Assembly (NCBI RefSeq): GCF_003330725.1 | Contig: NZ_CP030840.1 | Location: 5,022,001 to 5,086,000 of the forward strand | DNA: 64,000 bases | Origin: Acidisarcina polymorpha | Lineage (GTDB): Bacteria; Acidobacteriota; Terriglobia; Terriglobales; Acidobacteriaceae | Direction: 5' to 3' | Part shown: piece by piece, positions 22,053-62,514 of the stretch | Layout of the letters: the number at the start of each line of letters is the position of its first letter | How positions within the stretch are numbered: the stretch's first letter is position 1 | Notes under the pieces: model-generated | What the model saw: the letters and a program-made list of their open reading frames with translations, nothing else | What the model was told of the DNA's origin: nothing | The model's database searches: none | Program-made: the position numbers and the translations under genes

Positions 22053-25000
22053 CTAAATCTCGATGGCATACCCCTCAACCTCGATGAAAGGAGCCTCGAT
22101 CCCCGGCATGGGAATTTCCGCGACAGCCAGAACGGCAAACTCTTTCTGCGCGGCAAGGTCAGGCGACGCGGGGTGGTAACCGTCCGACGTGAACACGGTC
22201 AGCTCGTGGAGCTTTGCGGGAAGCTGGGAGAGGGCTTCGCGCTGCGCTGTTATCTGCTCGGCCTCGCCACTCAGGATGACGCGATCTACAGCCAGGCGTT
22301 TCGTCGATTCGATGGCATAGCCATACTCGACGTGCTGCGCCTGTTCGGGTGTGAGCTGCAGGCTGGCTCCCGAATCGACTTTGACGGAGAGGCCGCCGTC
22401 CTCGTGGATTTGCTCGATGGTGGCAAGATTGCCGACGCGGATACCTTGATCCCACTCGGAGCGGGTGAACTGGATGCGCTCCCCCTCTCCCAGCTCGCGC
22501 TCCTCGGGGCTGTAGACCGTCGCTTTAAGGCGCATCTGCCACTCGGTTGCAGGGTTGTAGACGCGGGGGCTGTCATCCGCTCCGGTGACGGTGATGAGGT
22601 TCTTTTCGGCGTCTACGCCGGTCACTGTTCGATAGGTGTTCGGGGAGATGCCCAGCTCATCGCTGCCCTTGCTGCCATAACGAATCACGTCGCCGACTTC
22701 ATAGACCGCGGCGATCTTGGCATCTTTGTCTGACAGGAGTTTGTCGGTGAGGACGTTGGCGCTGAAGGTTTCGCCCAACCGTCCCTGCTCGTGAAGATCC
22801 GCACGGATGAGCCGTGTCAGCTCTTCACGCTCCGCCTTATCAGGAGCGAAGATGACGGCGCGATCTTCTCTGGAAACGTAATCCTGCACCACGGCAGCCA
22901 AGCGGTGTTCCGGGTCGCTGTAGACCTGGATACGATTGGTATCCCGCAGGAGCGCGGTTCCCGACTGTGGGTCATCGCGCCGGAAGCTGTCCACCGCCTG
23001 CCGCACATCGTTGAGGTCAAGGGCCGAGCTCTTCGAAACATCGGTTGCCAGCCGCTCGCTCAGGTTGGCGGCGTTATTTGTGTAAATACGGGCGTCGTAG
23101 GCGGCACGGGAGATGGCGACATAGGCTAGCCGGTCATTGATAAGGGAGCGGCTGGAATCGGTGTCGATATTGGCGATCACGCGATCGGCGGTGAGTCCCT
23201 GCGAGCTGTGGGACGTGACCGCGTAACCATGGTCGAGCTGCCGGAACTCGGTCGGGTCGAATGTTACTTCGCGCCCACTCTTGCCATCCATGCGGATGGT
23301 GATGGAGCGCTCCTCAAGTGCCGTGATGGTGCCAAGGTCGCGATTGGCGATGCCGAGATCGCGGTTTCCGGCGGTGAATTGAATGCGCTCGCCTAAGCTG
23401 AAATCCCGGCTGCGTTCTTCAAAGACGTTCACGCCATAGAGCCGCTTGGGGTCGTAGGAGATCTGCTCGCCGTCCTGCTTCTGAACGGTGAGGGCGTTGG
23501 TCCGGGCGTCCACATCGATCACACGGGCCTTGGAATTCCGCTCGAAGCCGAGAGCCTTGCTGCCGGACTCGTAGCGGATCACATCGCCGGGATTGTAGAG
23601 CGCCGCCCAGGTGCGGCCCGCGCCGGTGAGGTCGGAGCGATGCGCGAGTGTCTGGAACGCGCGACTATCCGGGGAAAGCTGGCCGGTGCTTCGCAGCTCG
23701 GCGCAAATGGCCTCGTTGATCTGCTGACGGCTGCGGTTGTCCGGGGAGACGACGATGGTGTTTTCCGGTTGGGCGGCATAGTCCCTGGCGATGGCCGCGA
23801 TACGATCCACGCCGTTGTTTACCTCGATCACGCGGCGCTGCTGGGCCAGCAACTCGACGCCCTTCTCTGTCTCTCCGGTGGCAAGGTGCTGGACCGCCTT
23901 TAGCAGCTCCGCATCCTTCTGCCGCATGATCTGATCCAGTTGCGAGGTCTGCATCCCGGCCTGCTGCATCTGCTCGAAGGGCTTGCCGGCCTCCACGCCC
24001 TGATGCTGGCCGATGTCTCCGATGACCAAAACCCGGTCCTCGGGCAAGACCTTCTGAAGAAAATCCCGCATTTGCTTCGAAGAGGCGAGCGAGGCTTCGT
24101 CGAGCATGTAGAGATGTCGGTTGGTAGGTTTGGTTTCTGTTTTGCGGGCGAGAAAACTCTGTAAGGTGTTCGCCTCAATTCCGGCCTCGCGGAGCTGGGC
24201 AGCAGCGCGGGACGTGGGCGCCAAACCCTCCACCTTATATCCCTTCGCTTCCGCCCCTTCCCGGATGGTTTCAAGGCTCGCGGTCTTGCCTGAACCGGCT
24301 AACCCCTGAAGCCCATGAACGCGGTCCGTCGAGGTCAGTACCTCATGAACAACGCGCCGCTGGGAGTCATTGAGAAAGCTCCTCGTATCGGCCTGAGCGA
24401 AGGCTTCGCGCTCGGTCATCATGGGCGCAAGAGCATGTCTGCCTTCCCTGACCTGCTGGATATTGGCACGCTCGGCGGCCAAGGTTTCAGGCGTCGTAAA
24501 CCGCTGCGCGGAGTCATAGGTCCGCTGGCCGAGAGTTTGAAACTGGCCTTGCTCACGGCGCGCCGAGAACTGGTCGCGGACCTCGGAAAAGGTCGCCTCG
24601 CCCATGCTGCGTCGAAGCGCGGCCGTCATGATCGCACGCTCGTCGGCAACAGCCTCGCGTTCGAAAAGATGGTCGCGAGCGAAGGTCATCGCCTCCTGTG
24701 CGCGGACAGGCGACGGTTGTCGTACACCCTGCTCGATGGATCGCTGCCGCGCCTCTGCAACGACCCGGCTGGCCTGGTTGCCGAACTCGGCGGCGACCTC
24801 CCGGTGCGCCTGCAGCACCTGCTCTTTGGTGAGGTCTTGTTTCTTTTCGCGCGTGGAGTGCGCGGCGATCTCCGCAGCCTCGGGTCCCTTAAATCCGTTC
24901 CGCTCCAGATGCTCCCGGATCTTCTCGGAACGTGGGCTGGACGCATCCAGATATTCCTGCGAAAAGCCTTTGATCGTCGGGGCGCCGGAACGCCCACGCT

Positions 25001-25685
25001 CTAACTCATAGCCCAGCTCGCGGAGCCTGTACATCAGGTGTGATTGGTACACCGCCGTCGCGTATCTCTGGCTTTCAAAGAACGCTCGCTCCTGGAGGGC
25101 ACGGGGCGAGCCGTCCTCCCGTTCGGTCACGTTGAAGATAACGGCATGGGTGTGGAGCTGGGGAGCGGCGTATTCATCGACCGGGCGGGCAGTATCGTGT
25201 TCGAACTTGGCTGCGACAAACCGCCCGGTCTGCTCGCCAGGGTTGTTGCCGCCGATCCGTGCCTGTGTGTACTGTTCCAGTTCGGAGAGTGCAGCGGTCA
25301 CCGCCTCCCGGTGAGCCAAGCGCACGCGCTCATCGCCGCCCACCAGAGCGGTCAGGGACACGGACTTGGGCGCGGAAAAGGTAGCATCCCAACCGGCCCG
25401 GTGCTCCACCGTCTTGGTGATGGAACCATCCGGGTTGGTCTGTTCGCTGGCGATGCGATGCTTCACCATCTGCTCGCCGGTTTGCGGGTTCTGACCATTG
25501 GCGAGAGCCATGAAGTCGGCTTTACTGACGGCTCCCGAGAGGCCGAACCTGTCGGCCAAGTCGCCCTGCCACTCGCCTAGCGGGGCGTCGTCTTTCGCGT
25601 AGTAGCTCTGTGTCTCGGACACAAAATCCTTGGTGTGATACGTCCCCGCCTGCGAGGAGTTGAGTGCCTTTGAAATCGTCAGCAT
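22053..25685 (-). CDS. MOB-F conjugative relaxase/helicase (TrwC/TraI-like)
   Basis: 1210 residues. The N-terminal relaxase domain (1-300) has the tyrosine pair Y28-Y29, KFEHDTARPVDEYAAPQLHTH with metal-binding H163, H178 and H180, and WDATFSAPKSVSL. A RecD-like helicase follows, with Walker A GLAGSGKT (461-468), HLYMLDEASL and later GYAVTSHSSQGLT. An SH3-like repeat unit (GDVIRYESGSKALG and GDVIRYGSKGSDELG) occurs twice, and a second relic helicase-like segment fills the C-terminus. It nicks oriT, stays covalently bound, and unwinds the strand for transfer through the VirD4 channel encoded just upstream (5-bp gap). It is the last gene of the transfer module and appears intact. Confidence 0.96.
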   Translation of the reverse strand: MLTISKALNSSQAGTYHTKDFVSETQSYYAKDDAPLGEWQGDLADRFGLSGAVSKADFMALANGQNPQTGEQMVKHRIASEQTNPDGSITKTVEHRAGWDATFSAPKSVSLTALVGGDERVRLAHREAVTAALSELEQYTQARIGGNNPGEQTGRFVAAKFEHDTARPVDEYAAPQLHTHAVIFNVTEREDGSPRALQERAFFESQRYATAVYQSHLMYRLRELGYELERGRSGAPTIKGFSQEYLDASSPRSEKIREHLERNGFKGPEAAEIAAHSTREKKQDLTKEQVLQAHREVAAEFGNQASRVVAEARQRSIEQGVRQPSPVRAQEAMTFARDHLFEREAVADERAIMTAALRRSMGEATFSEVRDQFSARREQGQFQTLGQRTYDSAQRFTTPETLAAERANIQQVREGRHALAPMMTEREAFAQADTRSFLNDSQRRVVHEVLTSTDRVHGLQGLAGSGKTASLETIREGAEAKGYKVEGLAPTSRAAAQLREAGIEANTLQSFLARKTETKPTNRHLYMLDEASLASSKQMRDFLQKVLPEDRVLVIGDIGQHQGVEAGKPFEQMQQAGMQTSQLDQIMRQKDAELLKAVQHLATGETEKGVELLAQQRRVIEVNNGVDRIAAIARDYAAQPENTIVVSPDNRSRQQINEAICAELRSTGQLSPDSRAFQTLAHRSDLTGAGRTWAALYNPGDVIRYESGSKALGFERNSKARVIDVDARTNALTVQKQDGEQISYDPKRLYGVNVFEERSRDFSLGERIQFTAGNRDLGIANRDLGTITALEERSITIRMDGKSGREVTFDPTEFRQLDHGYAVTSHSSQGLTADRVIANIDTDSSRSLINDRLAYVAISRAAYDARIYTNNAANLSERLATDVSKSSALDLNDVRQAVDSFRRDDPQSGTALLRDTNRIQVYSDPEHRLAAVVQDYVSREDRAVIFAPDKAEREELTRLIRADLHEQGRLGETFSANVLTDKLLSDKDAKIAAVYEVGDVIRYGSKGSDELGISPNTYRTVTGVDAEKNLITVTGADDSPRVYNPATEWQMRLKATVYSPEERELGEGERIQFTRSEWDQGIRVGNLATIEQIHEDGGLSVKVDSGASLQLTPEQAQHVEYGYAIESTKRLAVDRVILSGEAEQITAQREALSQLPAKLHELTVFTSDGYHPASPDLAAQKEFAVLAVAEIPMPGIEAPFIEVEGYAIEI

Positions 25686-25690
25686 CGGGG

Positions 25691-28105
25691 CTACTCCAGA
25701 GAGAGGCTGAACTGCTCATCGTCGTAAGGCGGCAGGATATGGGTTTGGTGCTGAGGATCATGAAGGGGGATAAGGTAAGGGTCTAAATCTGTGAGCATGA
25801 TCGGGTCGGAAGTGGTCTGCTCCGGTTGCTCTTCGGCTCGGTTGACGATATCGGCCCATTCCTCTCTGACCGCCTTCAACTCGTCTTCCGAAACGTCGCG
25901 GCCCTGCTCCTCCAGTGATTCGCGGAACTGTTGCAGCTCCTGAAGAAACTCGGATGCGACGGCAGCAATGCCGCTGGGTTCCGGGGCTGACTGCCCAATT
26001 GTCTGCGCCTTGGCCTTTTCCGCGGGTCCATCCCCGGACATCGTAATAGCACGGCGGTGCTGCGCCCCTCCTTTTCGCTTAGGTACCTGCGGTTCTTTCG
26101 CTTCCGGTTTGGGCTCTGTCACCGACAGAGGCTGCGTCTGAGCTTCAGCACTGGCGGGCGCGGCTGGTGGGGCCAGCGGCTCAAGTGTGCGTCGATCAAA
26201 CTTCAGCTTGTCGTCGGCGTTTTCGCGGGGAATAAACGCATCCGTCATCGTCGGCAGGCCGTGGTAGTCGAAATCGAAGCGGGCGATCCGATTGCCAAGT
26301 TTCAGATACGCGCGGCGGTCCTCCAGGCCAGAGATTTCAGACGCCATGACCAGAGGCTCAATCTGCCTGTCGATGGTGTAGTTCTTGCCCGCGCGGGAGC
26401 CGTCGAAGTGCGTCTCCTTCAGGCGCTCGATCTCGACCTTGCCGAGCGTATCCGAGATCCATTCGGCGGCTTTACCCTCCGTGGTTCTCATGAAGATTTT
26501 GGTGGCGGGCTGGCTCAACATGACCTCGGCGATCTTGCCGTAGATGTCCTCCAGTTGGGCGCGGCCCTGAAAGCCGACCACGAGCGGATTTTTCGACTTC
26601 CTGCTCTCTGTCATAGCGCTGTGGAGCTGTGGAAGTTTCTGCAGGCTGGCCAGTTCGTCAATCACAAACCAGACCTGCTTTTGCCCCGGCTTGGGAATCT
26701 CCATCAAGCGCATCACGAGGATGTCAATCCAGAGTGAGATGAGTGGGCGCAGCACCTCGCGCTGAGACTTCTTGGAAGTAATAAAGATCCAACCTTCGCG
26801 CTGCTTAGCCCAATCGGTGGCGTTCCACATCGACGTGGTTTCTTCCTTGCGCGGGAGCAACCGGAGACTCTGCGCGACTAGTCCGAGGCTGGCAAGAACG
26901 CCCGCCGCCTGAGGGCCAGCCTTGCGGTCGATGTAGAACGCCATCTCCGTCCCCTTGACCTTCTTTTGTAGGAGAGTTTCATCGGCCATCCATTCGGCCA
27001 GCGTGTGGGGCGTGGGTCCTTCGCGGAGCAGATGGGCGAAGATTTGGGCGGGCGTTCGGTAGAAGAACTCCTTGTTCGAACTGTTGGAGCTGCCGCCCGA
27101 TGGTTGGTATAAGGATTCGGAAATCGTTGTGGCTTCCTGGTTGCTCTCGATCTCCATGGCGGGCGACCAGAACGGGCAACGCGCGTCGAGCGGATTGAGG
27201 ATGATGTCGCCGCGTTTCTTATCGTAGAATCGCTGCACGAACTCCGAAGCCGGGTCATACACAATCGCCACATCTCCACGGTCCCGGATCTGTCGAAGTA
27301 GCTGCATGATGAGCGTCGTCTTGCCCGCGCCGGTGTCGCCCATCATCTGAAAGTGCTGGGACTCCTTGCCGGGCGGAATCCGCATCAGGCCGGTCATCTC
27401 CGTGGTCTTGAAACCAAGTCCCAGATGAGCTTGGTTGCCACCCTCCTTACTGGCTCTCCATGCACGGAACTCGCCCAGGGGATTACGCCAAAACTCACGC
27501 ATGACGGCGCGGTGGAACTCGCGTGGGCTCATCATTTCGGGGCCACGGAGGACGCGGCCATACTTTAGAACTTTGAGCCGCTTGATGTCGGCTGGGACCG
27601 CAAACCAAAGCATGATGGCCAGCAGTACCCCAGCTTCGATGTAGGTCAGGAGAAACAGGTGCGGAAGGCTTTCGCCTTTGAAAAACGTGAGGCGAAGCCA
27701 GCCATATAGAGATGCGTCCTGTAACCTCTTCGGAAGACCCCGCCCAAACCACCGATAGCCCTGTGCCTGCGGAAGCGCAGTGAGCTGGATGGGTACGGTC
27801 TTCCCGTTCGGCAGCGTCGTTTGGCCATCCTCGAAATCAAATGGAAGGGCAAGACGCGGCTGTCTCTTCGTCGCACCGTAGAGATAGAACAGTCGGTACT
27901 CACCGGCTTGGTGGAAGGCCGAGCCAGCGGCTGCGCGGACGTATTCCGTCAAGTAGCTCCGTTGCATGATGGACATGGAAAACGCGACCCTCTGCCATGC
28001 AAAAAAGCATAGACACATGAGCGCTACTCCAATTGCCGTGAAGGTGTACACCGGCACGGTCGGCGGTGTGATAAGCGTCTCTTTTCTGCCCCAGGTCGAT
28101 GCCAT
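25691..28105 (-). CDS. virD4: Type IV coupling protein (VirD4/TrwB-like)
   Basis: 804 residues. Two N-terminal membrane segments (about 20-40 and 150-172) anchor the protein. Walker A is GDTGAGKT (256-263); Walker B is QVWFVIDELASL, followed by the LPQLHSAMTESRKSKN helix typical of TraG/TrwB proteins. The C-terminal about 150 residues are proline- and charge-rich and probably contact the relaxosome. It docks the relaxase-DNA complex to the type IV channel and is encoded 5 bp upstream of the relaxase and 3 bp after the MobC-like gene. Confidence 0.96.
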   Translation of the reverse strand: MASTWGRKETLITPPTVPVYTFTAIGVALMCLCFFAWQRVAFSMSIMQRSYLTEYVRAAAGSAFHQAGEYRLFYLYGATKRQPRLALPFDFEDGQTTLPNGKTVPIQLTALPQAQGYRWFGRGLPKRLQDASLYGWLRLTFFKGESLPHLFLLTYIEAGVLLAIMLWFAVPADIKRLKVLKYGRVLRGPEMMSPREFHRAVMREFWRNPLGEFRAWRASKEGGNQAHLGLGFKTTEMTGLMRIPPGKESQHFQMMGDTGAGKTTLIMQLLRQIRDRGDVAIVYDPASEFVQRFYDKKRGDIILNPLDARCPFWSPAMEIESNQEATTISESLYQPSGGSSNSSNKEFFYRTPAQIFAHLLREGPTPHTLAEWMADETLLQKKVKGTEMAFYIDRKAGPQAAGVLASLGLVAQSLRLLPRKEETTSMWNATDWAKQREGWIFITSKKSQREVLRPLISLWIDILVMRLMEIPKPGQKQVWFVIDELASLQKLPQLHSAMTESRKSKNPLVVGFQGRAQLEDIYGKIAEVMLSQPATKIFMRTTEGKAAEWISDTLGKVEIERLKETHFDGSRAGKNYTIDRQIEPLVMASEISGLEDRRAYLKLGNRIARFDFDYHGLPTMTDAFIPRENADDKLKFDRRTLEPLAPPAAPASAEAQTQPLSVTEPKPEAKEPQVPKRKGGAQHRRAITMSGDGPAEKAKAQTIGQSAPEPSGIAAVASEFLQELQQFRESLEEQGRDVSEDELKAVREEWADIVNRAEEQPEQTTSDPIMLTDLDPYLIPLHDPQHQTHILPPYDDEQFSLSLE

Positions 28106-37282: not shown

Positions 37283-39637
37283 CTATGCCGACTCGCCCTG
37301 CGCAAAACGCTCAATGCCCTCATGAAGTCCGTACATCTCGATCAGCTTCGAACGCCGCACCTTGTCCTTCGGCTTCGTCGAAAACTTTGCGTAACTCCGG
37401 CTGTCGAGATTGAGGGTGATGACTTTGGTGATGCCGTCACGCCGGACGTAAAGCCCTTCGCGCGGACGCAGGCTCTCAAAGAGATCCAACTGCTGCTCGC
37501 TGAGCTTGAAGAGCTCGCCATAGAACTTGCGGTTGAAGGTCGCGTCGGGTAGGAACAGGAACGAAGTACACGAGTTCACGATGGAGTCAGCGTTCTCGCC
37601 TAAATCATTCGCAGACTGCCCGATCATGGTCACGCCACCGAGGTTCTTCCGCACCGTCTTGATGGAAGCAAGTGCCCCTTCAAGCAAATGCTTGTTCTTC
37701 ATGTTGGAAAAGATCTCTTCAATGAGCACATGCTTGGGAACACCTAGGTTCCTCGGGTCGTAGAGAATATCGTCGATACGGCGCAAGATCCAGACCATCA
37801 ACGGTTCGATGAGGTCGGCATACTGCTTGTTGTTGACACCTTGGAAGTCAAAGCACTGCAAACGCGCCATGCGCAGGCTATCCTCCGCGTTGTCAAAGAC
37901 CGCGTGGTAAACGCCCTGATCCTTCCACTTCGCCATGTAACGATCGAGGTGTTTGGGCAGTGTCAGATTGGCGAGCCTACGCATGGCCTGCGGCAGGTTG
38001 TAAATGCCTCTTACTGATTTGAAGACATCGTCATCGTCCTCAGGGCCAAGCGTCGCCCCCGAGTTGGTGAGCAGCAACTTAACGAAGGAATGAAGGAACG
38101 CGATATTCGTTTCGGTTGGCTCAAGTGCAAACGGATTAATCCTTGGACCGTCTTTGCCGACCCGATCGATCCGACCTCCGTAGAGTTCGACCACGCTCTC
38201 GTAGCTGCCGCCGATATCAAAAATGAAGGTAAAGCCGCCATACTTTTGCTCCAGGCTGAGCATCTGGCAGGCATGGACGCTCTTGCCGGTTCCTGTTGGG
38301 CCGATGATGAGCTGAACGCGTACACCGTTCACATAGGTGTCCTGGAAAAAGGGTGTCCGGGTCCGGGTCTCGAAGATGTTCAGGTACTCAGCGTCGAGGT
38401 CATCAGAATGCGTGTGACCCAAGTGGGGCGCGAAAATGCTGGACAGCCGTGCGTGATGATCTTCCCGCAGCCAGAGTGGATACACGTTGAACTGCCGATT
38501 GCCCGGAAACATCGCGTAGAAGGCGGAGAGATTGCCGTAGGTCTCTTCCATGATGGGAGCACGGGCGTCCACGAAGAGCCGATGGACAGCAGGCGTTGCA
38601 GCGCGTAGCTCTGAGGCGGACCCCGCCGAAAGCAACAGCCGCAAGGCGTAATCGCCCTGACCAAGCTTGTCGAGCGATGAAACGACTTCGCTGAGGTTGT
38701 CGACATTGCTGGAAACAGCTTTCGCTGTAGCCGTGGTCTCGAGCGGGGCAGCATTTCTTCCGCTCATCAGACGTTGTAAAGGAGAAAGCTTGAAGAATTC
38801 TAGAAACTTCTCTTGGCTTGTCACTTCCTTACGTGTGGCACTGTCCGACTGGGGCCGCCACACAGAACATAGAATGCTGTCGCAATCGAGCTCCATGAGG
38901 CCCATAAACAGACAGGGACGAGAGATCTCCGGCGTACCGGTCAACGGGAACATCTGGACAAAGCGGCGTCCGATGCGGAGGTGCTCGCTGTGCCACTCAA
39001 CTGGGGACCTCACGATCTGCCGGTCTGCACCAGCATCCGAGCGCAGATGGACATCGGATGCCCATTCTTCAAGGTTGAAGAGATAGCTGAAAAACTGAAA
39101 GGCTTGCTCCTTGCCAAGGAGCTTCAGGCCGACTGATTCGCTCAGGTGCGACTCAAGGATTGTTGCCGCTTTTTCGAGTTCAAAGAGCTGTCGGTCAGTC
39201 GCGATGCTTTGATCTTTCGGCTTGCGGCTTAGCGGGTTGCTGACATCAGGCTCGATTGTGAGGCACCAGTGCAAGTCGATCCGACGGAACCGGGCTGCCC
39301 GGTTCAGAAAGTTGATGCGGTCATCCGCGAATGCTTGGGTGACGGCGTCCGGATACTTTGTTTGCCGAGGGAGAGAGAAACCCGCCCGGACGCGAGTGTA
39401 CTGATATAGGCAGGCTCCTTGAGGAAGCCCTCGGAGCGAACCTTCCACGCCGCGCACCCTGGCGTATAAGTCTTCATCCGTCCGGCTTTCCGCATCGATA
39501 CCATCAAGCGAGAAAAGGCATCCGTAGCCTCCGGCTTTGAGCGCGAAAATGCTATTGCCGACAAAGTGCGAGATTGGCACAATGCTGCTCGCTGCGCCAG
39601 CCTTGGTAAACCACGGTGCGTTATTTGCGAGGGTCAT
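37283..39637 (-). CDS. trbE: VirB4/TrbE transfer ATPase
   Basis: 784 residues. The N-terminal VirB4 domain is followed by a RecA-like motor with Walker A GPTGTGKS (446-453), FTFIFDIGGSYES, INPFALEPTE and a Walker B region HVLIEEIFSNMKNK. Walker B has Glu-Glu rather than the usual Asp-Glu, worth noting although TrbE-type proteins vary here. ILLxxGQSANDLG-type sensor residues (GGVTMIGQSANDL) follow. It energises pilus biogenesis and substrate entry. It overlaps the virB3 gene by 17 bp and is separated from virB9 by 37 bp. Confidence 0.95.
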   Translation of the reverse strand: MTLANNAPWFTKAGAASSIVPISHFVGNSIFALKAGGYGCLFSLDGIDAESRTDEDLYARVRGVEGSLRGLPQGACLYQYTRVRAGFSLPRQTKYPDAVTQAFADDRINFLNRAARFRRIDLHWCLTIEPDVSNPLSRKPKDQSIATDRQLFELEKAATILESHLSESVGLKLLGKEQAFQFFSYLFNLEEWASDVHLRSDAGADRQIVRSPVEWHSEHLRIGRRFVQMFPLTGTPEISRPCLFMGLMELDCDSILCSVWRPQSDSATRKEVTSQEKFLEFFKLSPLQRLMSGRNAAPLETTATAKAVSSNVDNLSEVVSSLDKLGQGDYALRLLLSAGSASELRAATPAVHRLFVDARAPIMEETYGNLSAFYAMFPGNRQFNVYPLWLREDHHARLSSIFAPHLGHTHSDDLDAEYLNIFETRTRTPFFQDTYVNGVRVQLIIGPTGTGKSVHACQMLSLEQKYGGFTFIFDIGGSYESVVELYGGRIDRVGKDGPRINPFALEPTETNIAFLHSFVKLLLTNSGATLGPEDDDDVFKSVRGIYNLPQAMRRLANLTLPKHLDRYMAKWKDQGVYHAVFDNAEDSLRMARLQCFDFQGVNNKQYADLIEPLMVWILRRIDDILYDPRNLGVPKHVLIEEIFSNMKNKHLLEGALASIKTVRKNLGGVTMIGQSANDLGENADSIVNSCTSFLFLPDATFNRKFYGELFKLSEQQLDLFESLRPREGLYVRRDGITKVITLNLDSRSYAKFSTKPKDKVRRSKLIEMYGLHEGIERFAQGESA

Positions 39638-52719: not shown

Positions 52720-54627
52720 GTGCGCCGGGATAAACCGGCATGAAGCAGGGAATGCAAGAGTCCTACGAGAAAGGAGTAGCGAACCGCTCGGCCCCGAGTT
52801 TTGCGTTGCGCACCGCGAGGTGCTCGGCGAAGCGTAAACAGGGGTACAGGTGGGCTGGGTATTGAGCTTCGAAAAGATGCAATCAGGACGCTGACGCTTT
52901 TGCATTGGCGGAAGGCAACACGGGAGGGAGCGATATCGCGAGTTCCTGACCGATCCTGCGTAGTCGTAGACCCCAGACACGCCTGGAAGCTTCATGCACG
53001 AGAACCGGGAGACCTCGGAGGCTCCTGCTGGCAACAGTAGCAGGACGGCGGGTAAAGGCTCAGGCCGTAAGGCCCGCATGAACGTCCCCGAGGAGTCGGA
53101 CAGCGGCGTATTACCTATGAATCATTCGAACAAAATCGAGCAGTCGATGGCGGAGAGTGAGGAGGGAAGGCCGCTGATCAAGGAGAACATCCATCAGTCC
53201 AGCACGCGCCCGACACAGAGCGGGGCACGCGTGTCACAGGGGCTGGCGGGTGTGCGGAAAGCAGCAAGGGAACACAAGGAGAGGAAGTTCACCACTCTGC
53301 TTCACCACGTCACAGTCGATCTGCTAAGGGACAGCTTCGGTTCTCTGAAGCGCAAGGCTGCACCCGGCGTGGATGGGATGACGTGGCAGGAGTATGAAGC
53401 TGGGCTGGAGGGTCGGCTTGCCGATCTGCACAGCCGGGTGCATCGCGGCGCGTATCGGGCGCTTCCATCGAGAAGGGTTTACATCGAGAAAGGCGACGGA
53501 CGGAAACGTCCGCTCGGGATCGCGGCAGTGGAGGACAAGATCGTCCAGCACGCAGTGGTCACCATCCTCAACCAGATTTATGAGGAGGACTTCCTCGGCT
53601 TCTCGTACGGTTTTCGTCCGGGACGCAGCCAGCATAAGGCGCTGGATGCGTTGTTTTATGCGCTCGTGAAGAGGAAGGTGAACTACGTACTTGATGCCGA
53701 CATCCAGGGCTTCTTCGATAACCTCGACAAAGCGTGGATGATCAAGTTCGTCGAGCATCGCGTCGCCGACCGACGCATCCTGCGCCTGATCCAGAAATGG
53801 CTCAAGGCCGGGGTGATGGAGGACGGGAAATGGTCGGACACGGAGACAGGTACTCCGCAGGGGTCGGTGATCTCACCGCTCCTTGCCAACATCTATCTCC
53901 ACTATGTGTTCGATCTCTGGGTGGACGTCTGGCGCAAGAAGTGTGCGCGAGGCGAGGTGATCGTTCTCCGCTATGCGGACGACATCGTCCTCGGCTTCCA
54001 GTGGGGTACGGACGCAGACCGTTTCCGCAAGAGCTTGGAAGAACGGCTGGGGAAGTTCAGACTGGAGCTGCACCCGGAAAAGACGCGCCGGATCGAATTC
54101 GGGCGGTATGCCGAACAGAACCGGAAACGAAGAGGAGAAGGCAAGCCGGAGACCTTCGACTTCCTTGGCTTCACGCATATCAGCGGGAAGAATGGGAACG
54201 GGTCTTATGCCGTGCGGCGCATGACGATCCGCAAGCGCATGCGAAAGAAGCTGCAAGAGATCAAGCAGCAACTCAGGATGCGCATGCATGATCCCGTGCC
54301 TGAGACCGGCGCGTGGCTCAGGTCAGTTGTACAGGGGTACTTCCACTACTACGCTGTGCCCGGAAATCTCGATAGCCTCGGGCTTTTCCGGGAACGCGTG
54401 CTCCGCTACTGGGGGCAAGCGCTGAAGCGCCGTAGTCAGAGACACCGGTACGCCTGGGCGCGTCGTCTCAAACTGGCCGCACAATGGCTTCCTACACCTC
54501 GCGTGATGCATCCTTGGCCCCTTGACCGCTTCGCCGCCACTCATCCGAGATAGGAGCCGCATGCGCTAAGGAGCGCTCGTGCGGATCTGTGCGGGGGGCG
54601 ATCAGTAATGATCGTCCCTACCGCGAC
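52720..54627 (+). mobile_element. Group II intron, apparently full length (bacterial class C-like)
   Basis: The 5' end GTGCG starts at 52720 and is followed by a typical structured leader. The reverse-transcriptase gene fills the middle. Downstream, a domain V-like hairpin (from GAGCCGCATGCGC at about 54554, pairing with GCGCTCGTGCGG) and a domain VI hairpin (GGGCGATCA / TGATCGTCCC with a bulged A in CCCTACCG) end near CGCGAC at 54627. The boundaries are inferred from consensus ends. Confidence 0.8.
53078..54553 (+). CDS. ltrA: Group II intron reverse transcriptase/maturase
   Basis: 491 residues from the ATG at 53078 (MNVPEESDSGVLPMNHSN), the usual start of this family; the frame is open 28 codons further. 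RT blocks: KRKAAPGVDGMTWQEYE, DGRKRPLGIAAVEDKIVQ, FSYGFRPGRSQHKAL, DADIQGFFDNLD, GTPQGSVISPLLANIYLHY and the catalytic RYADDIVLGF, then the thumb and a maturase X domain (YFHYYAVPGNLDSLG). There is no HNH endonuclease, as in class C introns. All catalytic aspartates are present, so it looks active. Confidence 0.95.
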   Translation: MNVPEESDSGVLPMNHSNKIEQSMAESEEGRPLIKENIHQSSTRPTQSGARVSQGLAGVRKAAREHKERKFTTLLHHVTVDLLRDSFGSLKRKAAPGVDGMTWQEYEAGLEGRLADLHSRVHRGAYRALPSRRVYIEKGDGRKRPLGIAAVEDKIVQHAVVTILNQIYEEDFLGFSYGFRPGRSQHKALDALFYALVKRKVNYVLDADIQGFFDNLDKAWMIKFVEHRVADRRILRLIQKWLKAGVMEDGKWSDTETGTPQGSVISPLLANIYLHYVFDLWVDVWRKKCARGEVIVLRYADDIVLGFQWGTDADRFRKSLEERLGKFRLELHPEKTRRIEFGRYAEQNRKRRGEGKPETFDFLGFTHISGKNGNGSYAVRRMTIRKRMRKKLQEIKQQLRMRMHDPVPETGAWLRSVVQGYFHYYAVPGNLDSLGLFRERVLRYWGQALKRRSQRHRYAWARRLKLAAQWLPTPRVMHPWPLDRFAATHPR

Positions 54628-56396: not shown

Positions 56397-56846
56397 CGTA
56401 TCGAGGGTGACAAGTACGATTCAGGACCCAAATTTACTACGCCAGAGACCATCGCCAGCGAACGCGCGAACGTGGCCTATGTCATGCGCGGCCAGCAACT
56501 GGTAGAACCGATGATGGACGAGGATGGAGCACTTGCCCAGGCCTCCCGCAAGAGCTTCCTCAACTCTTCGCAGCGGGCCGTGATTCAGGAGGTGCTCACC
56601 TCTCCCGACCGCATCCACGGCCTGCAGGGGCTCGCCGGTACGGGCAAGACAACCGTTCTTTCAAGTATCCGCGAGGGCGCCGAGAGTGCAGGATATGCGG
56701 TTGTTGGCTTCGCTCCCTCGTCGCGGTCGGCGGCCCAACTCCGCGAGGCCGGAATCTCCGCGACCACGCTACAAAGCTTTCTCGCTCGAAGCAATCGGGG
56801 TCACGCTGCGGGCGATCCTGCCAGCCAACATCTCTATATGTGGTGA
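56397..56846 (+). pseudogene. Fragment of a second MOB-F relaxase/helicase
   Basis: From GDKYDSGPKFTTPETIASER through FLNSSQRAVIQEVLTSPDRI, Walker A GLAGTGKT, GFAPSSRSAAQLREAGI, TLQSFLARS and HLYMW* it parallels residues about 388-523 of the intact relaxase at 22053-25685 (FTTPETLAAERAN, FLNDSQRRVVHEVLTS, GLAGSGKT, GLAPTSRAAAQLREAGI). It is related but not identical, on the opposite strand, and both ends are missing. It is the only trace of a second conjugative element, next to the tRNA scar. Confidence 0.88.
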
Positions 56847-56868
56847 GCGCACTCACGCGCTCACCACA
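56839..56868. repeat. Perfect 12-bp inverted repeat at the end of the relaxase fragment
   Basis: TGTGGTGAGCGC (56839-56850) and GCGCTCACCACA (56857-56868) form a perfect 12-bp stem with loop ACTCAC. It starts within the codons where homology to the relaxase ends. No T-run follows, so it may be a recombination or deletion junction, or a protein site, rather than a terminator. Confidence 0.6.
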
Positions 56869-57108
56869 CTAGGAGTCGTCGCGGTTAAACGCATGCATGA
56901 TCCTGAAGAGCTGACACGTGATATCTCCACCAAACCACTTCAGGTGTCCTGCACCCTTAAGCTCACCGGTAGCAAACCATATCTTGTAGCCGCTGCCTCT
57001 ATGAATGAGCTCTACTTTTGCCATTCCAATATTTTTAAGATTTATCCGCGGAACCAGAAGGATTTGGGTTCCCTTCGTGTGGATCTCTCCCGACACCGAT
57101 AATTCCAT
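56869..57108 (-). CDS. Possible partial conserved protein
   Basis: From the ATG at 57108 the minus frame reads ELSVSGEIHTKGTQILLVPR, NLKNIGMAKVELIHRGSGYK and WFATGELKGAGHLKWFG. This has beta-rich, protein-like character, unlike the other frames here. It continues to the edge of the inverted repeat at 56868, so the 3' end may be lost. No family recognised; it may be a gene remnant. Confidence 0.35.
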   Translation of the reverse strand: MELSVSGEIHTKGTQILLVPRINLKNIGMAKVELIHRGSGYKIWFATGELKGAGHLKWFGGDITCQLFRIMHAFNRDDS

Positions 57109-57123
57109 GCGTGGGCAATACAC

Positions 57124-57482
57124 TCTGCTCTTAACAAAATTGAAGTAGCCTCAGATGCCTGCGGCGACTAGGGCTATGACGTTACCGATAAAATGGGTGA
57201 CAATGTCCTAAACGTCCTTTGCCTGAGCCAGCACTCCCTGCGATAGATGATCCGGCATGACAAAAGCATATACCGTTGTTTTTGTAGCCCATACAGGTCT
57301 CGTGTCAATCTCGGCACCTAACAATCCCATTTGTGCCGCCGATCTGGAGGCTAATCTCAAGCGACACCACGCTCGGCCGGCTGCACAAGGTCCTTCAGGG
57401 CGGGTCGTACAGTAATCGGCAGCCGTCATTCGCCGCACTCGTCGCGGAAGTGCCGTGAGAACCGCAGGGGCAATTACTCAAC
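57124..57482. other. No gene seen
   Basis: About 360 bp downstream of the prenyltransferase-cyclase gene. No convincing frame, hairpin or RNA gene. A terminator for the operon is expected here but none stands out. Confidence 0.4.
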
Positions 57483-59519
57483 TCAGGAGCTCCGACGATC
57501 CAGGCCCTGAAGTCTTCCATGCACGCTAAGCGCCTTGCATACTGTGGCCGTAGTGAACAAGCCACTGTCCGCATACACAGCACTACTGCCCCCATCGATC
57601 CATGGTTGTTCACAATCGGTTTGTGGCACCCTCAGCATCGCGCTTCTTGCCCAGCTGCCATCTGGAAGCTGAGACTGAAGGAGTTCTGTAACCAGACCAG
57701 TGGAGGCCTCTATAATGTCGCGATTTCTCTTGAAGTGCTGAAGCGCCTGCAGGCAAAGGGCCTTCTCAAATGCGCCAAAGGACTGCCCGGTCTGTAAAAG
57801 GACCCAAGATTCCGTCTGCTGAATCTCCGGATATTGAGAGCAAGCGGCGAAGTAATCCAGCGCCGCAAGTGTAGCGTAGAGATCGGTTTCCCACCAGTAA
57901 CTTCTCCAGGCTCCGGCCGAGTCTCTTAGCTTCAGGACTCTTTCAAAGGCGGTCGGACTATAGCTTCCCAGCGCACGCAAGACCGTCGGAAATACGTCGG
58001 CATGCGCATGGCTCCAGCAATTTGGGTAATCTGCGACTTGAAAGGTCCCGTACTCCCCACTCTCGATTGCATAGGCCCGCAGCGTTGCCCGGTATGGCGT
58101 TATATCGATCCCGAGTTGGCGAAGCAGGAGAAGGCTCATTGCAGTCGAGTCGGCATCGGTTTGCGCTCTCTCGTTAAAGCTCCAGCCACTGTGCCGAGTC
58201 TTCGATAATAGCCACGGGATGGCGGTCGCGATCGCCGAGTGAATAGATGCTTCGGCCTCAGAAGAACATAAAGTCTTGAACAGCGCGTCCCCAACGACAG
58301 CTGTCACCCAAACGTTTGAGGCCCCGACGATCGGCAAGGAAAAATCGGTCCACTCACCGCTTTTATGCTGCTGGTTAAGAATGTACCCAACCGCGCCTTC
58401 CAGCGCAGCGGCAGAATCGTAAGTGCGAGTGCCTCTATTTGCCTGCTTCGGAACCGCAGAAGGTCGTGTATTGTCCCTCAGATAAATGTTCAACCGGGGA
58501 CCGCTTGGTCCTGTGCCCATACCAATGAAGTCATGCGAAGGGCTAAGACTTGCTGGCGCGGCCGGGTCTATCAGTGCCAACGCCTCATGATATTTTTGGG
58601 GACTCACGCCAATCTCCGACGCCAGGGTTTCGATGGCGGCGGTAGCTTCCGTGTTCGACTGGAACAGGTAGCGAGCATTGATATCTACCTTGATCGAAAG
58701 TGTCTCAGCCGTCGCGCTTTGTGCAATTGAAAACAGCAAAGCGCGGTCGGGTAGGGTGGATAATGCTGGCGATAGGAGTTGCTCGAGGACACTCATCGGG
58801 CCAAGGAACTCAGGCTCTATTACACTCACTAACTCCCGAGTGGCCTCCCATGCGGCGCCGCGCTTCGGGCGAAAATACACCTTCAGTAAAGGTTGCTCCT
58901 TAAACGTAACTGCAATTCCGGCCGGGCTGAAGAATGGCGCCAGCAGCGGAGCGAGATCGCGAAGACGGGCGGCCAGACCGAGCGCCCTCGATTCGCGCAG
59001 TACGGATGTCAAACGGACCCACTTCTGGAGCTCCTCTCCCCAATCATTATTTGCGTACACCTGAATGATGGGAGCAGAATCGCCCGCACAGCCCACAGAA
59101 ATCCAAAAGCCGGCTGGGAGCTGATCAAGGACCTCGGCCGAATCGGGCAACGACTTGAGCAGACAAGTGATAAAAGCCTCCGCTGATGGGGGGAGGCCCA
59201 CTACTTGAAGGGCCTGTTTAATTCTGATGAGGCTCAGATCCGTTCGCGACGACAGCGAATTGAAAGGGGAGCCGACTTCCGTTAGATATCGAACATCTCC
59301 CGAACCGCCTGGGCCTAAGGAAACGCAATACTCCCAGGGGGACCCGTCATCGCAGATAGAGGAAAACCTGGGGGGGGTACCTTCGACCGGATACTGCAGG
59401 GACTCTTGGGTGAATAGATTGAATAAGCACCAAAACTGCGTCCTGCGTTCACCAACGATCCGATCGTCCGCTAACATTCGTTCAAGTACTGGAACTACCG
59501 AGTCATGTAAAGTGCGCAT
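57483..59519 (-). CDS. ABBA/DMATS-like prenyltransferase fused to a class II terpene-cyclase-like domain
   Basis: 678 residues. Residues about 20-350 match the pattern of DMATS-type aromatic prenyltransferases: DDGSPWEYCVSLG (57-69), DVRYLTEVGSP, repeated basic/Tyr strand motifs IIQVYANN (151-158), LLKVYFRP (211-218), SIKVDIN (275-281) and PRLNIYLR (341-348), each opening a beta-beta-alpha-alpha unit. Residues 365-670 are squalene/prenyltransferase repeats: QW motifs QQHKSGEW (383-390) and QLPDGSW (617-623), SGWSFN, and DADSTA (455-460) at the DXDD acid position. The middle acid D457 is kept while the fourth residue is Ser. There is no signal peptide. A fused enzyme could prenylate an aromatic or peptide substrate and cyclise the prenyl chain (inference). 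Last gene of a three-gene operon. Confidence 0.65.
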   Translation of the reverse strand: MRTLHDSVVPVLERMLADDRIVGERRTQFWCLFNLFTQESLQYPVEGTPPRFSSICDDGSPWEYCVSLGPGGSGDVRYLTEVGSPFNSLSSRTDLSLIRIKQALQVVGLPPSAEAFITCLLKSLPDSAEVLDQLPAGFWISVGCAGDSAPIIQVYANNDWGEELQKWVRLTSVLRESRALGLAARLRDLAPLLAPFFSPAGIAVTFKEQPLLKVYFRPKRGAAWEATRELVSVIEPEFLGPMSVLEQLLSPALSTLPDRALLFSIAQSATAETLSIKVDINARYLFQSNTEATAAIETLASEIGVSPQKYHEALALIDPAAPASLSPSHDFIGMGTGPSGPRLNIYLRDNTRPSAVPKQANRGTRTYDSAAALEGAVGYILNQQHKSGEWTDFSLPIVGASNVWVTAVVGDALFKTLCSSEAEASIHSAIATAIPWLLSKTRHSGWSFNERAQTDADSTAMSLLLLRQLGIDITPYRATLRAYAIESGEYGTFQVADYPNCWSHAHADVFPTVLRALGSYSPTAFERVLKLRDSAGAWRSYWWETDLYATLAALDYFAACSQYPEIQQTESWVLLQTGQSFGAFEKALCLQALQHFKRNRDIIEASTGLVTELLQSQLPDGSWARSAMLRVPQTDCEQPWIDGGSSAVYADSGLFTTATVCKALSVHGRLQGLDRRSS

Positions 59520-59562
59520 TTAGAGGCACGCAAGTTCTGCGATTCCACGCTCTCTTCCTGGG

Positions 59563-60237
59563 CTACATCGCCTTCGCAACTGTGATACCCCCGGGTGTGC
59601 CCGAAGGTCCGATTGCGCCCGGTAGACCATTTCCTCCCACCGCGCCGGCGCTTCCCCCGCCGCCGTCACCGCCGCCCCCGCCCGGCCCTCCAATGCCGCC
59701 GACGCCGCCAACGCCGCCCGCTCCTCCCTGGCCGCCATTGGACTTATAGGAACTGGGACTGCCAAGAGTGATGCTCGTATAGGTAACGACTACGTCTCCT
59801 CCCGGCCCACCAGGTCCGCCTGCCCCGCCGTCGCCACCCCGGCCTCCCGGCCCCCCTGGGCCACCGTCGGAAGGCGCTAGTTCGTCATCGCCGTTGCCCC
59901 CGGTACCGCCCGGTCCACCTACGCCACCATTTCCGCCATTGCCACCCGTTCCACCTGTTCCACCTGAACAGTCGATATTGAGGCCGCCCAGCAACTCGGT
60001 GACTTGTAATACCAGGTCCACACCGCCACCCCCCGGCTGACCCACATTTCCCGGTGATGCATCGCCGCCGGCCGGTCCGGGTCCCCCAGGCTCGGAGGAC
60101 ACATCGCTCGACCAGGTATTGTCCTGCGCGTTCCTTCCGCTAAAACCAACGCCAACGGCTCCCGTGCCGTCGCGCCCATTTTGGCCAGCACCGCCCACCA
60201 GCGACCCGGGAGTAGGCATAATATTGACGCTAGACAT
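59563..60237 (-). CDS. Collagen-like glycine-rich protein
   Basis: 224 residues, dominated by GGxGGx runs (for example TGGTGGNGGNGGVGGPGG, PGGPGGRGGDGGAGGPGG). Two non-repetitive beta-like islands interrupt them: GVDLVLQVTELLGGLNIDC (about 74-92) and DVVVTYTSITLGSPSSYKSN (about 146-165). There is no signal peptide. It overlaps the upstream 243-residue gene by 8 bp and lies 43 bp before the fusion-enzyme gene, so the three are co-expressed. It could be a scaffold or a substrate; its N-terminus MSSVNIMPTPGSLVGGAGQ resembles no leader peptide I recognise. Confidence 0.75.
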   Translation of the reverse strand: MSSVNIMPTPGSLVGGAGQNGRDGTGAVGVGFSGRNAQDNTWSSDVSSEPGGPGPAGGDASPGNVGQPGGGGVDLVLQVTELLGGLNIDCSGGTGGTGGNGGNGGVGGPGGTGGNGDDELAPSDGGPGGPGGRGGDGGAGGPGGPGGDVVVTYTSITLGSPSSYKSNGGQGGAGGVGGVGGIGGPGGGGGDGGGGSAGAVGGNGLPGAIGPSGTPGGITVAKAM

Positions 60238-60961
60238 GGGAGCCCTCCGCTACTACTTCGGTCTTACCCAAGTAGTTCAGCAGCGAAGCGCTGCTTACTT
60301 GGGGGATATGAATTTCGTGATAGTTGCCTACGATACTTGCGCAATCAATTTTGGTCGAACTGTCCAGATAGATCGCGCCACCTCGCCATATGCGAATCTT
60401 GTCGGCGAACAAGACCTTGATACTCGCTGAGATTTGCAGAATTCCCCTGGGAAGGACATCGATATCGTGGCCTACAAACAGTCCTGCGAGGCCGTATCTA
60501 TTAAATTTCGCGATCAAATGGTTGATTGAGGGAAGATAGCTGCTAACGGTCGTTGAATCCCCATAAACATAGGTCCTCGCGATGTTGAACAGCGTCTGGC
60601 GTTGGCTAGGGCTTAGATCCTTCACGGCCTGGGGCGAATCTACGAATGCAACATCGGACAAACTTTGGCAGCAATTCTTGGACAGCCGGCCCACCTCATC
60701 CGAAACTCCCACCCAACGTTTCACGTCTTCCATGCTCTTCGGGAACAAGCGGTTGTATCCCGAGCCGTGCTGCTCGTTGCCTTCGCGGGCGTGCTCATGG
60801 TGACTCGGAGCATACAGCGTAAGCTTTACGCCGGAGGGCACAACGATCCGATCGGTTAAAAGTTGCTTTTCTGTCAGGTCGTAGACTGCAAGACGCTGTT
60901 CTATATCCAAGGCACTCACCTCTGAAAGGCCGAAATCGCCTCTCCAATCGTTGCCGCTCAA
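60230..60961 (-). CDS. Unknown 243-residue protein, first gene of the operon
   Basis: No recognised family. The N-terminal half is mixed (SALDIEQRLAVYDLTEKQLL, SGVKLTLYAPSHHEHA, QTLFNIARTYVYGDSTTVSS). The C-terminal 80 residues have regular short beta repeats (IKVLFADKIRIWRGGAIYLD, STKIDCASIVGNYHEIHI), like a right-handed beta-helix turn set; similar elements (LNIDC, VVVTYTSITL) appear in the glycine-rich partner, which suggests a structural relation. No signal or membrane segment. It overlaps the next gene by 8 bp. Confidence 0.65.
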   Translation of the reverse strand: MSGNDWRGDFGLSEVSALDIEQRLAVYDLTEKQLLTDRIVVPSGVKLTLYAPSHHEHAREGNEQHGSGYNRLFPKSMEDVKRWVGVSDEVGRLSKNCCQSLSDVAFVDSPQAVKDLSPSQRQTLFNIARTYVYGDSTTVSSYLPSINHLIAKFNRYGLAGLFVGHDIDVLPRGILQISASIKVLFADKIRIWRGGAIYLDSSTKIDCASIVGNYHEIHIPQVSSASLLNYLGKTEVVAEGSHV

Positions 60962-61423
60962 AACTTGGCGCGAAGCGTGAGAAAGACGTCACATATATAG
61001 CAGCTTTCGGCTCCCAAAGGTACATTAAATACAACTTTGGCAGCGTCAACGTCTGTCTGTCGGGCGCTACCCTAGGCCGCGCCCTGCAGCAAGACGTTAC
61101 CGCGAGGCCTCTGGGAGAGTTGTGATGGAGCCAACCGTGTCGGGCAGTAAAGTGGAAGGTGGCGGCGGACTTCCTTTTGGTCGAGAGCGCTCACACGGAC
61201 GTAGCCCACCTGGAGGCCCTTCCTTGCAGGCACCTCCTCAGCTTTCGTCCTAATAGATTAAGACTTCTCTTCACTACCCGTCATAATATTCCAGAAGTGA
61301 TCCTATTAGGACGCTAAAGAGCTGCAATCAACATGTACTAATTGCGTATACCCAAATGCGACGATGTTCCTCGGCGCCTTACCTATACGTCTGAAAAAGC
61401 GAAAACTCTGAGGGACTTGGCAA
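60962..61423. other. Intergenic region upstream of divergent genes, no gene seen
   Basis: 460 bp between the starts of the 243-residue gene (minus) and the OsmC gene (plus). It must contain both promoters. A TATATA element near 60993-60999, read on minus, is a plausible -10 region for the prenyltransferase operon. No repeat or RNA structure is evident. Confidence 0.4.
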
Positions 61424-61828
61424 GTGAGCGAAACAACTGTGGAGTACGAGGGTTTTTTACGCTGCAGCGCTAAACATAGGGAGTCAGGCGTCATTGTTGT
61501 AACGGATGCCCCTAAAGACAATCATGGGGACGGTACGAGCTTCTCGCCGAGTGAATTGTTGTCTGTGTCTCTAGGAAGTTGCATTTTGAGCATTATGGGC
61601 ATCATGGCGCGTTCGCTTGATATCGACCTCACTGGAGCGACGGCTAGCATAGAGAAGGAAATGGCGAACGCACCGCGCAGGATCGTCAAGATTTCAGTTC
61701 ATGTGAACGTCCCCCGTGTCTTTGAGGACGATCACCAGCGCAAGTTGGAAACAGCAGCTCATGCTTGTCCTGTCCACAACATTCTTAACGTAGACGCACC
61801 AATCTCGTTCAGCTGGGGTCCCTCGTAG
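61424..61828 (+). CDS. OsmC/Ohr-family protein
   Basis: 134 residues, GTG start. Family features: TSFSPSELLSVSLGSCILSIMGIMA with the first redox cysteine C53, and AAHACPVHNIL with the second, C114. Such proteins reduce organic hydroperoxides or act in sulfur/redox stress. There is no linked OhrR regulator. The two-cysteine layout is complete, so it should be active. Confidence 0.9.
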   Translation: MSETTVEYEGFLRCSAKHRESGVIVVTDAPKDNHGDGTSFSPSELLSVSLGSCILSIMGIMARSLDIDLTGATASIEKEMANAPRRIVKISVHVNVPRVFEDDHQRKLETAAHACPVHNILNVDAPISFSWGPS

Positions 61829-62163
61829 GCTTGCGGGTAATCCTTTCTGACGTTTGGGTCTCTATAAATGCCTTCCTCGCCAGTTTGCCCGCTTTGCCTC
61901 AATTGGGGACGCCTCAAGATAGGGAATTTTATGTACGTTTAGGTCTGCCGAGGGAACGAAGCGCGATCCTGGAAGGCTCCCTTATCCGGACATTGAATTT
62001 CGGATGGGTTATGGGACGCTTTTGGGCCAAAAATTGTCATCCTAAGGGTATTTGAGGTTCGTCCTGAAAACTCTCGTTTTGGCTACAACAGCAGGAAGAT
62101 GAACACTGTAAGCTGTTTAGGTTCAGCGCGGGCAAATCCTTAGAGTACGTAAATTTCCCTTTC
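61829..62163. other. No certain gene
   Basis: 335 bp. A 74-codon frame starting TTG at 61831 has no homologue-like features. The frame of the following membrane-protein gene is open and fairly protein-like back to about 62075 (QEDEHCKLFRFSAGKS), so that gene may have lost its real start. Confidence 0.4.
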
Positions 62164-62514
62164 TTGAAGTGTCCCCAAAGGGGAGTACATGCGTCCATCA
62201 AAGAAGACCTCAAGTGGCCCGTCGAGGATGCATTTAAGAAGCCGATCGAGGATCTACGTTACGCGACCATTCAGGCTCAGAGTGTCATGAGGGAGGTACG
62301 CAGCACGGCAAAGCTTCAAGGCTGGACCACGGTCGCAGTCGTGCTCGTCATGGGGATTGCCCTCGGCGTGACCGGCAGCTACTTCTTGTTTATTCGGGAT
62401 CTCGGCAACATCGATGATCGACTGGAAACTATTCAGCAGCAGATCGCCACACCCGCTCCGGCTCCCGAGACCAAACCGGCCGGCAAGCCGGGCAAGGCTC
62501 ATCCTAGCCATTAG
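62164..62514 (+). CDS. Small single-pass membrane protein
   Basis: 116 residues from TTG at 62164; no better start is visible and the frame is open further upstream, so the N-terminus may be truncated. A helical segment (KKPIEDLRYATIQAQSVMRE) precedes one membrane helix (TVAVVLVMGIALGVTGSYFLF), then a coiled-coil-like stretch (GNIDDRLETIQQQIA) and a Pro/Lys-rich tail. The layout resembles small membrane accessory proteins of mobilisation operons, but no family is recognised. Confidence 0.5.
   Translation: MKCPQRGVHASIKEDLKWPVEDAFKKPIEDLRYATIQAQSVMREVRSTAKLQGWTTVAVVLVMGIALGVTGSYFLFIRDLGNIDDRLETIQQQIATPAPAPETKPAGKPGKAHPSH

Follow-up and report, generated by a model that had tools for sequence, protein, structure and literature searches.

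A stretch of the Acidisarcina polymorpha genome, 64,000 nucleotides long (contig NZ_CP030840.1, positions 5,022,001 to 5,086,000) and referred to as the window, carries a minus-strand gene whose 678-residue product joins two enzyme-like halves in one chain. This raises the question of whether the attachment of a prenyl chain and its cyclization are carried out by a single protein, and on what acceptor. An original prediction, made from the sequence letters, had placed three minus-strand open reading frames (ORFs) at this locus, all of which are present at the positions given, and had read the enzyme as an aromatic prenyltransferase followed by a class II terpene cyclase. The results below support both assignments, and we consider it probable that the protein is a two-step meroterpenoid synthase, which transfers a prenyl group to indole or a similar small aromatic and then cyclizes it by a class II mechanism. 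The gene and its parts are as follows.

57483-59519, minus strand: fusion gene, 678 residues, ATG start; DMATS-like aromatic prenyltransferase plus MstE-type class II terpene cyclase
58464-59519, minus strand: N domain, residues 1-352; ABBA (DMATS-like) prenyltransferase, by AlphaFold2 model, Foldseek, VIA and A2 profile
59331-59333, minus strand: codon of Glu63, at the position of the catalytic Glu of DMATS-type enzymes; aligned with the Glu of PVEF in 6zrz
57510-58427, minus strand: C domain, about residues 365-670; monodomain class II terpene cyclase (MstE type), by phmmer and A3 profile
58146-58157, minus strand: DADS (residues 455-458), at the place of the class II acid motif; pairs with MstE DADT in the alignment

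The N-terminal half is predicted to be an ABBA barrel closest to DMATS-type enzymes

The N domain was aligned with four split-gene relatives that are 19-21% identical to it (alignment A2), and residues 1-352 were modelled from this alignment with AlphaFold2 (mean predicted local distance difference test score, pLDDT, 71.4; predicted template modelling score, pTM, 0.78). Strand pairs alternate with helix pairs in the resulting model in the style of an ABBA barrel, and a Foldseek search with it returned 92 PDB chains at E <= 0.001, the top match being 5-DMATS of Streptomyces coelicolor (6zs0, E 4.4e-15, template modelling score 0.78). Structural alignment by VIA-align to another 5-DMATS entry, 6zrz, covered 335 of the 352 residues with a Z of 31.1 and a root-mean-square deviation (rmsd) of 3.1. 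When the A2 profile was run against PDB sequences, it matched CymD (E 8e-8), TleC (E 4e-4) and four chains named DMATS-type aromatic prenyltransferase (6zrz, 6zs0, 6zrx and 6zry, E 2.1e-6 to 4.2e-5, with 6zrz at 2.1e-6 and 6zrx at 3.7e-5), and the window N domain by itself, with no profile, found 6zrz at E 0.007. Model, Foldseek, VIA and profile agree with the ABBA fold that had been proposed for this half and for which structure prediction had been suggested as a check; they support a predicted barrel whose closest relatives are the DMATS-type enzymes.

The sequence motifs on which the proposal had been based are in place, with SPWEY at residues 60-64 and the strand motifs IQVYAN at 152-157, LKVYF at 212-216, SIKVD at 275-279 and RLNIY at 342-346. 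The roles of Glu106 and of other active-site residues of TleC are described in PMC4786772. Judged from the 6zrz alignments and motif spacing, Glu63, Arg77, Arg342, Tyr215 and Tyr346 of the window protein fit TleC Glu106, Arg119, Arg378, Tyr252 and Tyr382, respectively, the pairing of 6zrz with TleC residues being our own, by sequence alignment and motif spacing. In TleC, this Glu is catalytic, the two Arg bind diphosphate and the two Tyr belong to the tyrosine shield.

The C-terminal half matches the MstE-type class II cyclases

A phmmer search matched residues 372-635 to MstE (6sbf, E 1.9e-13), and a profile built from the window C domain and four relatives (A3) reached 8pak at E 4.1e-35 and 6sbf at E 5e-24. 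The motif DADSTA occupies residues 455-460, its DADS standing at the acid-motif position, and two QW-like stretches lie at residues 383-390 and 617-623, as had been noted in the original prediction. The whole-protein alignment with all rows (A1) misplaced stand-alone N domains and was used for the cyclase motifs alone. Cyclase length, about 305 residues in the window and 313-315 in the split genes, fits the single-domain class (about 310-370). By sequence similarity, these results support the earlier reading of the C half as a class II cyclase, and specifically one of MstE type. Like MstE (6sbb-6sbg) and 8paj/8pak, it would be a one-domain class II cyclase with a DAD[ST] motif; by contrast, those are stand-alone chains of 361-367 residues in the PDB, whereas the window cyclase is fused behind a prenyltransferase.

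The two halves recur together as overlapping neighbour genes

A search of 398 genomes from the same family gave 12 with a match to the fusion at E <= 0.001, including the window genome. The other eleven comprise four with both halves as two adjacent ORFs (G137, G195, G258 and G285), three with the cyclase fused to a different N domain (G031, G151 and G331) and four in which the match is confined to the cyclase (G074, G157, G176 and G221). Scanning genome contigs with A2 confirmed 6 of 84 stretches, found in the four split-pair genomes just named, which are Acidobacteria or Terriglobia metagenome-assembled genomes (MAGs), and in two Nitrosomonas MAGs. At each of the six split loci, the prenyltransferase and cyclase genes are complete ORFs that overlap, by 8, 8, 8, 11, 4 and 4 bases; stops within two of the G258 matches fall where the matches overrun ORF ends. 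Because both enzyme halves recur together in six other genomes, the pairing of the two domains goes beyond chance and is not accidental. The functional coupling that the original prediction had proposed for the two activities is likewise backed by these six split-gene relatives, as far as gene arrangement can suggest it.

The prenyltransferase family is rare, since A2 matched the window genome alone in a 396-genome sample of the phylum, a sample that missed four family genomes known to carry the pair. A pattern scan of genome contigs for relatives of the whole fusion matched 5 stretches, none of them a true relative, and a search of the fusion against 72,556 plasmid records yielded one match, a Deinococcus cyclase with no recognised prenyltransferase gene beside it. 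PF11991 found no match at E <= 0.001 in the window's own genome; control genomes were equally silent, so that this search is uninformative.

A two-step reaction and the observations that weigh on it

If both sites are active, the DMATS-like barrel would move a polyprenyl chain from its diphosphate to an electron-rich aromatic ring, the acceptor most likely being an indole, such as tryptophan or one of its derivatives, taken up as a small molecule rather than as part of a protein encoded in the operon. A chain of C10-C20 would be expected because C5 leaves nothing to cyclize. The MstE-type domain would subsequently protonate the attached chain via Asp457 of DADS, leading to ring closure; the proton-donor role of Asp457 is assumed here by analogy with class II cyclases. 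A soluble enzyme of this kind, attaching and cyclizing in a single chain, would make aromatic meroterpenoids conveniently accessible, and its two halves could be studied separately in the split relatives.

Several observations weigh against this reading. PF11991 (Trp_DMAT), named as a check in the original prediction, does match the window protein but below its cut-off (E 3.9e-4; 20.3 versus 25 bits), and TIGR03429 matches far below (E 1.6e-4; 21.1 versus 163.85 bits). Because these curated family models match below cut-off, we call the N domain DMATS-like and do not file it in either family. The two Nitrosomonas relatives also stay under the PF11991 cut-off (18.8 and 19.7 bits), and the three acidobacterial split relatives L020, L021 and L023 are not matched by it. 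Within the window barrel, diphosphate-binding or tyrosine-shield positions are altered to Gln153 (TleC Lys187), Leu211 (Arg248, with Lys213 nearby) and Asp279 (Tyr317). All six split relatives carry Gln in place of both the catalytic Glu and the first Arg, and the split group may therefore use another acceptor. As the cyclase tree groups the window with the split relatives at a support of just 71/65, a common origin of the fused and split pair is plausible but not proven by the tree. All six titled records of the split pair are MAGs. Finally, two genes that accompany the split pair elsewhere, encoding a 303-residue TULIP-like protein and a 286-residue protein (see below), were not matched in the window genome, the search for the latter having no positive control.

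The altered basic and tyrosine positions, and the Gln that replaces the catalytic Glu in the split relatives, would also be consistent with one or both sites being inactive, such that the barrel just binds a ligand or the cyclase alone works on a chain from another enzyme. We regard this as quite improbable, given that the window copy retains Glu63, Arg77, Lys213, Arg342 and the two shield tyrosines and that neither gene is truncated in any of the six split loci.

Genes next to the fusion and next to the split pair

Two further minus-strand genes precede the fusion gene.

59563-60237, minus strand: Gly-rich gene, 224 residues, collagen-like, single Trp (residue 42); possible operon partner
60230-60961, minus strand: orf3, 243 residues, TTG start; without known family

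The original prediction had linked all three genes translationally. This holds for orf3 and the Gly-rich gene, which overlap by 8 bases, but there is no such overlap for the fusion, which starts 43 bases past the Gly-rich stop with its ATG directly after an in-frame stop. The order of orf3, Gly-rich gene and fusion thus fits an operon in which the enzyme gene does not overlap its neighbour. Of the 224 residues of the Gly-rich protein, 87 are Gly, and residues 168-218 form an unbroken run of 17 GXX triplets, so that the collagen-like repeats described earlier are present, but no Pfam family, collagen models included, was matched at E <= 1. Beta-helix-like repeats had been proposed for orf3; we found no match to Pfam, NCBIfam or PHROGs at the limits used, and the match to PDB sequences was at chance level (E 2.1). 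In 300 family genomes orf3 occurred in its own alone, and it occurred in none of the 72,556 plasmid records. Searched with tblastn at E <= 1e-3, 13 other loci gave no match to either protein, a search in which the low-complexity filter was on and could hide a Gly-rich relative. Having given no match in the relatives searched, orf3 and the Gly-rich gene may share an operon with the fusion but do not count as parts of a conserved system, and the role given to them in the original prediction is not supported. In the neighbourhood survey that it had suggested, the three-gene unit fails in the sampled genomes, but the two-domain unit is conserved.

The split pair has neighbours of its own. Upstream of it lie genes for about 286, 303 and 255 residues, in constant order in L020, L021, L023, L030 and L033; at the sixth locus, L022, the contig begins within the third gene. 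Between the acidobacterial reference L021 and Nitrosomonas, identity is 46-47% for the 286-residue protein, 64% for the 303-residue protein and 52% for the 255-residue protein, and the five Trp of the 303-residue protein are unchanged between phyla. None of the cassette proteins tested reached a Pfam cut-off, and PDB sequence searches gave at best E 0.98 for the 303-residue protein and E 0.2 for the 286-residue protein, with nothing up to E 5 for the 255-residue protein. The model of the 303-residue protein is modest (pLDDT 65.7; pTM 0.58), and Foldseek found no match to it at E <= 0.001. VIA placed BPI first (Z 9.8, rmsd 3.1, 164 residues aligned), with Z above 8 in just four rows; BPI, LBP and CETP head the list, followed by YceB, juvenile-hormone-binding proteins and Der p 7, and we take the first 35 of 50 rows to be TULIP or SMP lipid-binding proteins. 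The model therefore weakly suggests a TULIP-like, lipid-binding protein. Its gene occurs in three of the 398 family genomes (G137, G195 and G285), all of them carriers of the split pair; this restriction fits a hydrophobic product without proving it. In both phyla, then, the pair belongs to a cassette whose 303-residue member may bind lipid. As a separate observation, a gene set with a sigma-70-type factor, zf-HC2 and CHAT-TPR proteins stands next to the cassette in L020 (702-5363).

Comparison with known systems and the question of a peptide acceptor

According to the original prediction, no described system held this combination. PMC13290415 describes two: NctPC, in which an ABBA prenyltransferase domain and an MstE-like cyclase form one chain that attaches C20 to a peptide tryptophan and then cyclizes the attached chain, and ChrPC, in which P and C domains place a cyclized isoprenoid on the Trp of a ribosomal peptide, its P domain resembling trans-isoprenyl diphosphate synthases and not ABBA enzymes. 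The architecture is therefore already known from NctPC. What seems to differ, judging by sequence, is the kind of prenyltransferase and the neighbouring genes. The primary account of NctPC is reportedly that of Hubrich et al. 2024 (doi 10.1016/j.chempr.2024.07.026). As far as NctPC is described, the window protein would share with it the single chain, the two domain types and prenylation before cyclization; by contrast, NctPC modifies the Trp of a ribosomal peptide, and the window has no recognised adjoining genes for ribosomally synthesized and post-translationally modified peptides (RiPPs). With ChrPC, as described, the likeness extends to the possession of P and C domains but not to an ABBA fold of P. 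The bacterial DMATS-type enzymes (5-DMATS 6zrz/6zs0, 6-DMATS, CymD, TleC, MpnD and PriB) resemble the window protein in the fold of the whole N domain and in the position of the catalytic Glu, and differ from it in sequence (14-18% identity in the VIA rows), at the altered Lys187, Arg248 and Tyr317 positions of TleC, and in lacking the cyclase fused behind. In the available parts of the literature searched, and among the matches listed, no DMATS-type prenyltransferase fused to a class II cyclase was found.

Given that NctPC and ChrPC act on the Trp of ribosomal peptides (PMC13290415), the window protein could instead be a maturase of that kind, modifying the Trp of the Gly-rich protein, one of the three Trp of orf3, or an unrecognised small peptide. 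In the same direction point the three genomes of the same family in which another kind of N domain shares its chain with an MstE-like cyclase amid lasso-type genes, and the genes beside the enzyme, in the window and in the cassettes, which belong to no recognised enzyme family and include one, for the 303-residue protein, that keeps its five Trp between phyla. However, the best structural matches of the window P domain are enzymes acting on tryptophan and indolactam, and a profile comparison with six P-type domains taken from RiPP-type clusters or their vicinity showed no similarity (hhalign probability 0.6%, from shallow profiles and with no positive control). Inspection by eye of the 84 ORFs of at least 25 residues that overlap 56800-62200, in which small peptides could escape, revealed no precursor carrying a known leader; a regular-expression scan of seven loci for lasso precursors was likewise negative, its pattern being too strict to be informative. 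The five genes of L021 are consecutive by their coordinates and leave little room for another, and the relatives searched gave no match to orf3 or to the Gly-rich protein. We therefore consider a protein- or peptide-modifying maturase unlikely and favour transfer to a small aromatic. The prenyltransferase and the MstE-type cyclase may have been brought together here in a lineage distinct from that of the ribosomal-peptide clusters.

A bolder idea is that the DMATS-like prenyltransferase-cyclase lineage attaches a polycyclic terpene to an entire protein encoded in the operon, the target being Trp42 of the Gly-rich protein in the window and the TULIP-like 303-residue protein in the cassettes. 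We think this very improbable; if true, the TULIP-like protein would hold its own terpene anchor, and folded proteins rather than small peptides would be terpene-modified.

Mobile elements around the locus

Conjugation genes lie at 22-40 kb of the window, comprising a TrwC relaxase, a TrwB-like coupling protein and a VirB4-like gene (22053-28105 and 37283-39637). A relaxase fragment, 60% identical to part of this TrwC relaxase, is found at 56472-56846 beside the operon, and group II intron parts (Rfam) span 52757-54627 around a reverse transcriptase ORF (52994-54553). Together with the occurrence of the pair in two phyla, these elements suggest horizontal movement of the enzyme locus. A short minus-strand ORF at 61072-61233 resembles the start of a serine resolvase, judging by its motif; Pfam gave no match to it at E <= 0.01.

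Other loci with MstE-like proteins

At L004 (5677-11879), L024 (7980-14551) and L025 (8930-13382), an MstE-like cyclase is fused to the different N domain amid lasso-type genes. Pfam recognised Transglut_core3, Asn_synthase and HPr-kinase-like genes in L004, and BLAST found relatives of the whole trio in L024 and of the Asn_synthase and HPr-kinase-like genes in L025. Terpene-modified lasso peptides are a possible product of these clusters. Membership of the window fusion in this group was considered and dropped, as the N domains are dissimilar (hhalign probabilities 0.4% and 0.6%, with 0.2% for a negative control of N domain against cyclase). The different N domain, which we infer to be a prenyltransferase, has relatives on four plasmids in the records searched (Nostoc, Pseudanabaena, Acaryochloris and Azospirillum), and six domains of this kind made up the alignment compared above with the window P domain. 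The annotation of Pseudanabaena and Acaryochloris includes a Nif11-like precursor in the vicinity, and precursor-like ORFs were seen by eye in Nostoc and Azospirillum. On the Pseudanabaena plasmid (L039, 5755-7548), this N domain is linked to a 2OG-Fe(II) oxygenase domain, in the neighbourhood of the Nif11-like precursor and a LanM gene.

Four more loci, L026 (937-6833), L027 (9577-15506), L028 (9584-15532) and L029 (4542-10488), encode MstE-like proteins beside a sigma-70-type factor, zf-HC2 and CHAT-TPR proteins, the neighbours having been identified by Pfam on L027 and by BLAST for the other loci; the set next to the cassette in L020 is the same. DAE replaces DAD in L027 and L028, and the MstE-like proteins of these sigma-70/zf-HC2/CHAT-TPR loci may therefore not be cyclases.

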